A stretch of 64,000 bases of DNA from Algoriphagus lutimaris (GTDB taxonomy: Bacteria; Bacteroidota; Bacteroidia; Cytophagales; Cyclobacteriaceae): positions 2,013,786 to 2,077,785 of the forward strand of contig NZ_JAFIDJ010000001.1 of NCBI RefSeq assembly GCF_017051705.1, written 5' to 3'. Below, one piece after another: positions 17,950-28,332 of the stretch. Every line of letters starts with the position of its first letter. Positions within the stretch are counted from its first letter, which is position 1. The notes beneath the pieces were generated by a model. It was not told the origin of the DNA, searched no databases, and saw only the letters and a program-made list of their open reading frames with translations. The translations under genes were made by a program, and so were the position numbers.

Positions 17950-17990
17950 TATTTCAACTGTATTTCGCCGAATGGAGTGAGACATATTTC
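17950..17990 (-). repeat. GAAATA iteron element A, upstream of ogt
   Basis: Read on the minus strand, GAAATA occurs at 17961-17966 and 17950-17955 with an 11-bp period (GAAATACAGTTGAAATAC). A third GAAATA at 17985-17990 lies on the far side of a core about 18 nt long. The layout matches elements B-E around the mutagenesis genes. The core of this copy forms only a weak hairpin. Confidence 0.6.
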
Positions 17991-18715: not shown

Positions 18716-18764
18716 GAAATACAGTGGAAACACAATGGAAATAAGCCCGCAAGCGGGCGAAATA
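18716..18764 (+). repeat. GAAATA iteron element B, upstream of the S24 repressor gene
   Basis: Three repeats, GAAATA 18716, GAAACA 18727 and GAAATA 18738, are spaced exactly 11 bp. A perfect palindrome GCCCGCAAGCGGGC (18745-18758) follows, then a final GAAATA (18759-18764). It occupies almost the whole gap between the four-helix-bundle gene and the repressor gene. Confidence 0.7.
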
Positions 18765-18769
18765 CTAGA

Positions 18770-19171
18770 CTAGCTATTATCTTTTAGTTGATTTTTAGCA
18801 GAATAAGTAGATTTAATCATGTTATTTAACCTGACTTGAACATCACGCCTGAGCTGATTGAATAATAAGAATTCTTGATCAGAAACAATACCTCTTTCAA
18901 AGCCCAAATCAATCCAATGTTCTACGCCTTCGGATAAAGATGCCCTTGAAATGTAATAGAATCTGGATTTTTCTGAAAAATGAAATCGAGCATATCCCTC
19001 AGCAATATTTGCTCCTACTGAATCAACAGCAGATAACATTTGATCGCCCCAAACTTTCTTTTCTTGAAAACTCAACCGTTGATAAACAGTCCATGCACTC
19101 GTAGAAAGCTTTCGGGAAAGACGATAAACCTCTAGCTCATGAATTGGGATATAAGCTGATTTCTCATTCAT
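18770..19171 (-). CDS. Four-helix-bundle protein (23S rRNA intervening-sequence protein family)
   Basis: The 133-residue protein matches the four-helix-bundle family by ELEVYRLSRKLS at the start, the central DSVGANIAEGYAR and SEKSRFYYISRASLSEGVE, and the helical C terminus. Members are encoded in rRNA intervening sequences and many other contexts; related Avd proteins assist diversity-generating retroelements. No rRNA or reverse transcriptase is present here. It lies upstream of the S24 repressor gene on the same strand, with element B between them. Function unknown. Confidence 0.88.
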   Translation of the reverse strand: MNEKSAYIPIHELEVYRLSRKLSTSAWTVYQRLSFQEKKVWGDQMLSAVDSVGANIAEGYARFHFSEKSRFYYISRASLSEGVEHWIDLGFERGIVSDQEFLLFNQLRRDVQVRLNNMIKSTYSAKNQLKDNS

Positions 19172-19222
19172 ATTTTATTTTTTAGTGGAGTATATTTTTT
19201 ACGAAATAGATTTCGAATCAAT

Positions 19223-19274
19223 TATTTCACCGACCGAAGGGAGGTGTATTTCCATTTTATTTCTATTGTATTTC
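19223..19274 (-). repeat. GAAATA iteron element C, between the four-helix-bundle gene and dinB
   Basis: On the minus strand GAAATA occurs at 19274, 19263 and 19252 (first base) with an 11-bp period. Then comes the hairpin-prone core CACCTCCCTTCGGTCGGTG (19246-19228) and a last GAAATA (19228-19223). The core differs from element E by one base. It lies in the divergent gap 19172-19407. Confidence 0.7.
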
Positions 19275-19362
19275 GCTACAGGCAAATCCTGCAAAGCATA
19301 TCTCCCCCTTTCCGTCAATCTCCTTCAATCTTTCACTCCAAGTATCCAAATATAAAACTTTT

Positions 19363-20659: not shown

Positions 20660-21196
20660 TTGAAAAAAGACTCCTATCTCTTCACTTCTACCCATCTTGG
20701 TTTTCGAACCTGGATAGATTCTGACCTAAAACAGTTTAGCTCCATGAACTCTGACCCGGAAACCATGAAATACTTTGAGAAACCTCTGAACATGGAGGAA
20801 TCTAAAGCCATGATGGAGCGGATGAATAAGCTATATGAAGACAAAGGTTATTGTTACTTCGCTGTAGAGCGATTGGAGACAAGCGAATTTTTAGGAATGA
20901 TTGGATTAGGATGGAAGACTTTTGAGGCGGAATTCACCCCTTGTGTGGACATAGGATGGAGAATCCGGAAAGAATTTTGGAACAAAGGCTATACTACCGA
21001 AGGGGCAAAAAGATGCTTGAACTATGCAAAGGAACTTGGACTCAAAGAGGTGCTTTCACTGGCCTCCTCAGACAACAAAGCCTCCATTCGGGTTATGCAA
21101 AAAATCGGAATGGAATATTGGCTGGATTTTGATCATCCGGACCTAAAAAAGTCAAAACATCTGAATCCTTGTAGTTTGTATCGGATAATACTTTGA
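20660..21196 (+). CDS. GNAT family N-acetyltransferase (RimJ/RimL-like), TTG start
   Basis: The 178-residue protein resembles the RimJ/RimL-type GNATs: TRLGFRTW-like N terminus, DIGWRIRKEFWNKGYTTEGAKRCLNYA, then SLASSDNKASIRVMQKIGM. No ATG lies in frame between the upstream stop (20612) and residue 30, so TTG at 20660 is the probable start. It follows dinB by 61 bp. The stop codon overlaps the first GAAATA of element D. Confidence 0.85.
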   Translation: MKKDSYLFTSTHLGFRTWIDSDLKQFSSMNSDPETMKYFEKPLNMEESKAMMERMNKLYEDKGYCYFAVERLETSEFLGMIGLGWKTFEAEFTPCVDIGWRIRKEFWNKGYTTEGAKRCLNYAKELGLKEVLSLASSDNKASIRVMQKIGMEYWLDFDHPDLKKSKHLNPCSLYRIIL

Positions 21197-21235
21197 AATA
21201 CCATTGAAATAAACCTCCCTATGGTCGGTGAAATA
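21195..21235 (+). repeat. GAAATA iteron element D, heading hairpin array 1
   Basis: GAAATA at 21195 and 21206 (11-bp period) is followed by the core AACCTCCCTATGGTCGGTG (21212-21230) and GAAATA at 21230-21235. It is nearly the same as element E (27972-28012). It overlaps the stop of the GNAT gene and runs into array 1. Confidence 0.7.
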
Positions 21236-21246
21236 CTAAACCAAGC

Positions 21247-21441
21247 TATTTCGCCGAAGGCTTATTTCGGACGACGAAGGAGTCCCTATCTCGCCGTAGG
21301 CATATCTCGGGAGCAAAGCGACCCTATCTCAGCGAAGCTGTATCTGAGGAGAGCAGCGACTCTATCTCGCCACAGGCCTATTTCGGACGACGAAGGAGTC
21401 CTTATCGCGCCGAAGGCGTATCTCAGGAGCGTAGCGACCCC
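21247..21441 (+). repeat. Tandem hairpin array 1 (ten hairpin modules)
   Basis: Ten short inverted repeats follow one another, each preceded by a TATTTC/TATCTC-like spacer. Short hairpins (GCCGAAGGC, GCCGTAGGC, AGCGAAGCT, GCCACAGGC, GCCGAAGGC at 21253, 21293, 21331, 21369, 21409) alternate with long ones (GGACGACGAAGGAGTCC at 21269 and 21385; GGGAGCAAAGCGACCC at 21309; related forms at 21347 and 21426). The period of one short-long pair is 38-40 bp. Arm changes keep pairing. This array, element D and the following terminator fill the 306 bp from 21197 to 21502; no gene is supported there. Confidence 0.8.
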
Positions 21442-21442
21442 A

Positions 21443-21478
21443 TAAAAAAAGATGCCACTTCCAATGGAAATGACATCT
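21443..21478 (-). terminator. Terminator of the ferritin-like operon
   Basis: Read on the minus strand, a 12-bp stem with two G-U pairs (21477-21466 with 21462-21451) is followed by eight Ts. It is 25 bp after the stop at 21503. Confidence 0.85.
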
Positions 21479-27971: not shown

Positions 27972-28030
27972 GAAATACAATTGAAATATACCTCCCTTCG
28001 GTCGGTGAAATACTATTTCCGTTTTATTTC
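27972..28030 (+). repeat. GAAATA iteron element E, heading hairpin array 2
   Basis: GAAATA at 27972 and 27983 (11-bp period) precedes the core TACCTCCCTTCGGTCGGTG (27989-28007) and GAAATA 28007-28012. Two TATTTC (28014 and 28025), again 11 bp apart, then lead into the array. Confidence 0.7.
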
Positions 28031-28332
28031 GCCGAAGGTATATCTCGCGCAAGCATATCTCGGGAGCAAAGCGACCTTATCTCAGCGTCTACCGAAGGTG
28101 GTAAGCTGTATTTCAGGAGCGCAGCGACTCTATTTCGCCGCAGGTCTATTTCGGACGACGAAGGAGTCCTTATTTCGCCCCGTCTGCCTGCCGAAGGTAG
28201 GAAGGCATATCTCGCGCAAGCATATCTCGGGAGCAAAGCGACCTTATCTCAGCGTCTACCGAAGGTGGTAAGCTGTATCTCAGGAGCGAAGCGTCTCTAT
28301 TTGGCCAAAGGCTTATTTCAGCGTAGCGTAAT
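28025..28332 (+). repeat. Tandem hairpin array 2, in the dnaE leader
   Basis: Same grammar as array 1: TATTTC/TATCTC spacers and short hairpins such as GCCGCAGGT, GCGCAAGC, GGGAGCAAAGCGACC, GGACGACGAAGGAGTCC (28153-28169). Some hairpins carry nested inserts: AGC...GCT at 28084-28107 encloses TACCGAAGGT, and GCC...GGC at 28177-28206 encloses CCT...AGG. A 71-bp block (28041-28111) recurs perfectly at 28208-28278, offset 167 bp. With the 38-bp box and element E it accounts for the 550-bp gap before dnaE. Apparent reading frames on both strands are by-products of the repeats. Confidence 0.8.

Follow-up and report, generated by a model that had tools for sequence, protein, structure and literature searches.

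The 23S rRNA intervening sequence (IVS) of Coxiella burnetii is described as a selfish element that carries an S23p gene (PMC4990558). Tandem heptamers, GACAGAT, lie directly before this gene, which according to an older idea cited in the same paper served mobility; the authors themselves conclude that expression of S23p is improbable and attach more weight to the RNA (PMC4990558). That paper also states that structures of S23 proteins have been solved and that their function is not known, and it describes a Xanthomonas S23 protein as a homopentamer (PMC4990558). Another kind of system comprises the REP and BIME sequences with their RAYT genes, in which tagged short hairpins have free copies genome-wide and further copies flanking the cognate gene (PMC3733652, PMC6006769). 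Subclass 2.6 of the Bacteroidetes Y1 genes has atypical structures (PMC6006769), and CGTC-tagged REPs, which also occur in Bacteroidetes, are stated to have no dedicated transposase (PMC3733652). The TAACTGA heptamers of Beggiatoaceae are intergenic short direct repeats that are also found in some Bacteroidetes, and the portion of PMC4679880 describing them contains 0 occurrences of terms for an S23 or four-helix gene.

Here we describe repeats in a window of Algoriphagus lutimaris DNA (the whole stretch analyzed, 64,000 nucleotides). The gene-bearing unit in the window resembles the IVS in combining an S23-family gene (PF05635) with inverted repeats, whereas array 1, the subject of the original prediction, is itself gene-less. 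The IVS lies inside 23S rRNA, but all 38 loci of the S23 clade studied here are intergenic, next to RND-pump or XRE/DinB/MGMT genes. The IVS is excised by RNase III (PMC4990558). In our units the arms are built from tagged 11-mers and mini-hairpins, and the genomes also contain scattered arrays that lack the gene. The layout of short tagged hairpins, with free copies and copies flanking a gene, is that of REP/RAYT systems, but the tag is neither GTAG nor CGTC, there is no link to Y1 genes and the candidate partner is a four-helix-bundle protein. CGTC REPs are likewise tagged palindromes, mostly head-to-head dimers with 8- to 9-bp stems (PMC3733652), whereas the present repeats form long arrays of 2- to 8-bp modules with another tag.

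Streptococcal BOX elements are likewise mosaic and intergenic and contain a variable number of inner modules; we know of no protein partner of the S23 type for them.

Array 1 has two inverted halves

Array 1 comprises the following parts.

21247..21441, plus strand: right half, ten tags with hairpins, in which 16-bp and 22- to 24-bp units alternate
21195..21235, minus strand: left half, GAAATA three times (reading TATTTC on the minus strand), with the hairpin ACCTCCCTATGGTCGGT
21236..21246, no strand: core, 11 bp between the halves, with a sequence that varies among species

The original prediction had described ten mini-hairpins with TATTTC- or TATCTC-like tags at 21247-21441, recurring with a period of 38 to 40 bp, and the sequence agrees. 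The tags start at 21247, 21263, 21287, 21303, 21325, 21341, 21363, 21379, 21403 and 21419, giving steps of 16, 24, 16, 22, 16, 22, 16, 24 and 16, and Tandem Repeats Finder reports 21246-21440 with a period of 38, 5 copies and 63% matches. All tags are TATTTC or TATCTC except one TATCTG and one TATCGC. What had been missed is the inverted left half, with GAAATA at 21195-21200, 21206-21211 and 21230-21235 and a hairpin at 21213-21229. It consists of tagged hairpin modules on the minus strand, so the element is larger than first reported. The stop codon of a GNAT gene overlaps with its first GAAATA; at the other end, the array abuts the terminator-like hairpin (by eye) of a ferritin-like gene (named by Pfam) on the opposite strand.

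Chance does not explain these modules. With up to 3 mismatches allowed, the tagged pattern TATYTCNGGAGCNNAGCGACC matches the window 7 times (0.01 expected), including 3 times within array 1, and TATYTCGGACGACGAAGGAGTCC matches 3 times (0.00 expected), including twice within array 1. Array 1 is not a CRISPR, as had been stated from the start, because its modules vary and its spacers are recurrent hairpins rather than unique sequences between near-identical repeats. Nor is it a known Rfam RNA, the best match (E of 0.034) being under the gathering score. Because neither 16 nor 22, the unit lengths in bp, is divisible by three, we set aside a 74-aa open reading frame (ORF) across the array as a candidate coding sequence.

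An S23 gene lies between arms of the same repeat

A gene 2 kb upstream of array 1, likewise missed at first, is bracketed on both sides by arms of the same repeat. The window contains one complete unit of a gene and two inverted arms (18716-19304) and two further gene-less arrays.

18770..19171, minus strand: S23 gene, 133 aa, PF05635/TIGR02436 four helix bundle protein, predicted four-helix fold
18716..18764, minus strand: left arm, downstream in gene orientation, GAAATA copies and the hairpin AGCCCGCAAGCGGGC
19223..19304, plus strand: right arm, upstream in gene orientation, TATTTC tags, the hairpin ACCGACCGAAGGGAGGT and 5-nt spacers
27972..28330, both strands: array 2, left half minus (27972-28012), right half plus (28014 to about 28330)
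17950..17990, plus strand: short array, three TATTTC with spacers of 5 nt and 18 nt

The AlphaFold model of the S23 protein is a four-helix bundle (pLDDT of 91.7). A profile of eight S23 proteins matches the PDB entries 2rld (E of 6.8e−24) and 2gsc (E of 1.9e−12), each with five chains. In the same PDB sequence search, no entry was listed for Avd, the four-helix protein that accompanies the reverse transcriptase and the template and variable repeats of diversity-generating retroelements and that we take to resemble S23, at E values up to 1. To our knowledge, no enzymatic activity of S23 is known.

In array 2, some hairpins are inserted in the loops of others (28084-28107 and 28177-28206): AGCG[TCTACCGAAGGTGGT]AAGCT and a GCC...GGC module containing CTGCCTGCCGAAGGTAGG.

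The arrays belong to a dispersed family

With array 1 as a nucleotide query, the A. lutimaris genome gave 16 matches at E values up to 10; the eight at E of ≤1.3e−4 all lie on contig 1, in four places. The original prediction had proposed a search for the TATYTC-hairpin grammar in related Cyclobacteriaceae, and we found it widely: of 73 genomes in the genus, 27 contain the pattern TATYTCGCCGNAGGC, compared with a single match for the reversed control pattern. Named genomes contain at least 119 array stretches, and among the matches listed these amount to 80 loci in at least nine genera (Algoriphagus, Belliella, Cecembia, Mongoliibacter, Indibacter, Arthrospiribacter, Aquiflexum, Cognataquiflexum and Lunatimonas), all of which we take to be Cyclobacteriaceae. 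In these 80 loci, the gaps between tags are mostly 4 or 5, 8, 10, 12, 16 or 18 nt. The strict alternation of two hairpin classes is therefore a feature of array 1, where it had been correctly recognized, and not a general rule.

Are these arrays REP elements mobilized by a Y1/HUH transposase (RAYT)? The clustering of short tagged hairpins in intergenic regions and the presence of Y1 genes in 66 of the 73 genomes would fit. However, 32 Y1 loci hold 6 modules versus 3 in the reversed control, Y1 and module counts are uncorrelated (rho of 0.04, 53 of 73 genomes) and one genome (G048) has arrays but no Y1 match. At the loci examined (the 32 above, and those of A. lutimaris by eye), the Y1 genes are not flanked by the repeat, and the hairpin foot carries TATYTC and neither GTAG nor CGTC, which rules out RAYT/REP membership there; as an account of the family, RAYT mobilization is almost certainly wrong. 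By eye, two Y1 (PF01797) genes of A. lutimaris (L002, C8:1094778; L003, C8:187310) are flanked by other palindromes, such as TTCAGGATTGCAAATCCTGAA at the former.

Of the arrays with at least 4 motifs (n = 138), 70 lie in tandem, 16 in divergent and 13 in convergent gaps, 22 at locus edges and 17 within ORFs of ≥100 aa, some of which are probably spurious. The gaps of ≥60 bp used for comparison (n = 265) were 165 tandem, 57 divergent and 43 convergent; divergent gaps, where promoters lie, are thus not favored, as they take up 16 of 99 placed arrays and make up 57 of 265 gaps. An HtpG-like gene (named by eye) is present in 7 loci, and in 6 of them (L068, L074, L076, L091, L099 and L107, from Algoriphagus, Cecembia and Mongoliibacter) its 5′ end borders an array. 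Locus L121 contains near-identical tandem blocks, and in Algoriphagus ornithinivorans (L127, L154) the arrays are mixed with blocks of CCCCGAGTTGCACTCGGG and AATCCCCC...GGGGGATT repeats and with TATCTT tags.

Pairing is kept in some module classes

The original prediction stated that hairpin arms vary between modules while pairing is kept. This holds for two size classes. Among 63 distinct 10-nt modules, all pairs form in 55.6%, versus a mean of 27% and a maximum of 41% after shuffling of the arms; for the 18-nt class (64 distinct modules, seven possible pairs each), the fraction of pairs formed is 68.1%, versus a mean of 45.2% and a maximum of 50.9% (2000 shuffles). The 12-nt class (11 distinct modules) is borderline and exceeds the shuffles weakly, with all pairs in 54.5% (shuffled mean 14%, maximum 54.5%) and a single-pair fraction of 0.818 (shuffled maximum 0.75). 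The 8-nt class (26 distinct) is not above background, with 69.2% versus a mean of 48.9% and a maximum of 73.1%. Internal features recur in the 18-nt modules as well: 26 of the 64 carry a tandem GA/GA mismatch (after arm shuffling, 2.07 on average and never more than 7), and 51 have a GNA loop. Loops of paired modules are mostly GAA, GCA, GTA or AAA. The 8-nt module without its last base is GCGAAGC, a DNA mini-hairpin called "extraordinarily thermostable" in the title of a work cited in PMC10527192.

The further conclusion that compensated changes imply selection on a folded RNA or single-stranded DNA went too far. Array 1 as a whole folds no better than shuffled sequences, with z scores of +0.38 (DNA, plus strand), −0.30 (DNA, minus strand) and −0.78 (RNA, 21197-21443). 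Compensated change need not mean selection on the fold, because pairing can also be regained through template switching where a palindrome is imperfect.

Array content turns over at a fixed site

The spacer between the GNAT and ferritin-like genes was read at 30 loci, out of 42 genomes with a match. Five genomes (G000, G016, G022, G026 and G052) have an array with a common left arm and different modules, so module content turns over at one site. In 20 other loci no such array was seen by eye, and at four (L234, L254, L256 and L258) the spacer was unreadable; in the genome of the first of these (G048), the array of L058 (330 onwards) sits just before the ferritin match at 602. The spacer before the ferritin-like gene in G052 (L249) contains two complete gene-less units in tandem, each with left arm, core and right arm.

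The closest relative of A. lutimaris, G013, retains remnants of both array ends at this spacer and has lost the middle. Its aligned blocks are 90 to 97% identical to the window, and the stretch at about 18757-19304, which holds the 133-aa PF05635 gene between inverted TATTTC arms, is absent; a PF05635 match was found nowhere in the G013 genome. In this single case of an absent gene with contracted arrays, the arrays of G013 hold fewer tags (2 versus 9, 1 versus 10 and 7 versus 17, in pairs of stretches of unequal length, namely 211 and 160, 247 and 113, and 415 and 300). For the two arrays around 462 to 466 kb of A. lutimaris, G013 has 6 tags versus 28 and 10. The G013 spacer orthologous to array 2 (L262) contains two small ORFs that look like a toxin-antitoxin pair by eye.

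These comparisons bear on two other explanations. The arrays could be host regulatory sites, with S23 as a nucleic-acid-binding regulator, the arms as autoregulatory sites and the dispersed arrays near particular genes as its regulon. Arrays do recur at the same intergenic sites across several species and genera, and the position next to the HtpG-like gene fits as well. However, the even-handed use of promoter-bearing gaps, the strongly different module content at one identical site and the many relatives without an array between the GNAT and ferritin genes all speak against a regulon, which we consider unlikely.

Alternatively, slippage and template switching at hairpin-prone DNA might expand the arrays passively, and the S23 genes would be selfish genes that sit in, or insert into, repeats on which they do not act. 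The near-identical blocks of L121, the doubled unit of G052, the contraction in G013 and the hairpins inside hairpin loops are what such a process would leave behind. Slippage would explain tandem blocks but not dispersal to many sites, and it cannot account for a repeat motif that changes with the S23 clade (below); we therefore regard a purely passive origin as quite improbable.

The repeat motif follows the S23 clade

Relatives of the window S23 protein with 57 to 92% identity are present in 24 other genomes of the genus, and 13 more with 58 to 63% identity occur in nine other genera (295 genomes drawn from the larger family). Together with the window gene, this close clade comprises 38 loci in 10 genera, and it forms one group (support of 99/89) in a tree of 137 proteins and 112 columns in which long branches were flagged. 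At least two GARATA lie upstream of the gene in 38 of 38 loci, and 30 of these additionally have at least two TATYTC downstream; the eight without the downstream TATYTC all belong to a subclade with TATCTT arms. Both arm types occur in 2 of 9 loci of a set with 45 to 52% identity and in none of 93 other PF05635 loci, a control group that contains many orthologues and in which those of the first draw were the top-scoring ones. The S23 ORF was found in 141 of 142 loci for this count, and L302, which duplicates L365, is not among the 93. Outside the genus, at the locus of Belliella buryatensis (L142), 11 GARATA precede the gene and 6 TATYTC follow it.

The clade loci occupy unrelated settings, 13 by an RND pump and 25 in an XRE/DinB/MGMT region, and we therefore infer that gene and arms moved together at least once. 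The upstream arms and the free arrays use common modules (5 nt, GCGAAGCA and GCCGAAGGCA), and the loops of the upstream arms (n = 78; GAA 44, AAA 21, GCA 4) agree with those of the free arrays. In the downstream arms 5-nt units predominate; 16 perfect hairpins were counted there, and CCC is the loop in 6.

The commonest 6-mer shared by both flanks shifts by subclade, from GAAATA to GAGATA (G004, G031 and G038; AGATAT in G008) and, in a third subclade of nine genomes, to AAGATA or AGATAG. In the outer S23 set it is GATATT (four), GAAATT, TGGATA, ATTGAT or others. Among the 73 genomes, 17 have both S-modules and the close S23 gene, 10 the array only, 8 the gene only and 38 neither (Fisher P value of 1.2e−4, in a test that ignores kinship). 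The association is strong, and the pair of repeat and protein is real and widespread. The main contrary fact is the group of 10 among the 27 S-module genomes that have no close S23 gene, including G028 with 69 S-modules. Eight genomes have the close gene and no S-module, and in nine array-bearing genomes the S23 genes have arms of the TATCTT type rather than TATTTC. We saw no insertion event with target-site signs, and this counts against the partnership as well. So does the conclusion from Coxiella that S23p is probably not expressed (PMC4990558).

A proposed partnership of S23 and repeat

How might an S23 protein and the arrays be connected? We propose that array 1 probably belongs, as a member without a gene, to a dispersed repeat family linked with the S23 clade, whose protein would recognize the tag and the hairpin. 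The complete unit would be an S23 gene between two inverted arms built of TATTTC followed by 4 to 5 nt or by a mini-hairpin. The S23 protein, whose solved relatives have five chains per entry, may read the tag and the adjacent hairpin in single-stranded form, and this recognition could drive the upkeep or copying of arrays, whose modules would also multiply by tandem duplication.

A different explanation is an RNA element: the inverted arms might pair in the transcript and be processed as RNase III processes the 23S rRNA intervening sequence, which would make insertion between cotranscribed genes harmless. Intervening sequences too have inverted repeats around an S23 gene (PMC4990558), and this likeness and the 13 clade loci behind an RND pump gene agree with such an RNA element. 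However, free arrays have a short left and a long right half, so that little pairing between them is possible, and array 1 RNA folds no better than shuffled sequence. We consider processing of this kind very unlikely. As to the single-stranded form that S23 may read, DNA fits slightly better than RNA, because the two halves of a free array lie on opposite strands and in each of them the purine-rich loops go with the tag strand. This strand argument rests on the free arrays and the upstream arms because the downstream arms hold few hairpins.

Short intergenic repeat arrays of this kind have so far had no known partner, and S23 is now a candidate. Apart from PMC4990558, the titles and abstract openings searched in the open-access literature disclosed no work in which repeat arrays flank S23 genes, and as far as these searches reach, the partnership is undescribed. 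The match between clade and motif bears on the function of S23 as much as on that of the arrays. It further gives a hint of how hairpin repeats that lack a transposase, as CGTC REPs are stated to do (PMC3733652), could be maintained.

Other S23 genes have other inverted repeats

Inverted repeats with motifs of their own also flank other PF05635 genes; many are heptamers, AAGTACN and GAAGACN among them. The inverted-repeat score of the flanks has a median of 15.5 versus 9.0 for mismatched pairs, which include orthologues with the same motif, and 38 of 94 loci (of 95, 94 were kept) exceed the 95th percentile. Tentatively, S23/PF05635 proteins in general may be the recognition partners of a whole class of repeats, with clade-specific tags (TATTTC, TATCTC, TATCTT, AATATC, AAGTACN, GAAGACN and others), inverted arrays bracketing the gene and gene-less spread. 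If so, they would constitute a second repeat-protein system beside RAYT/REP, one that operates without an HUH enzyme, and the rRNA intervening sequence would be a special case of it.

The A. lutimaris genome has five S23 genes, of which the window gene alone lies above the flank-score threshold. The four others (L300, C1:2470216; L301, C8:352747; L303, C1:451850; L304, C1:45223) have their own inverted short tandem repeats by eye, of the types GATCAGTG, GAGAATGG, AGTTTAAAG and GAAGTACG. Elsewhere in the genus (L270 to L299 and L305 to L364), S23-type genes lie between heptamer arrays (AAGTACN, AAGTATC, GAAGACN and GATGTCN), and many of these bracketed genes sit between the same two genes in different species.
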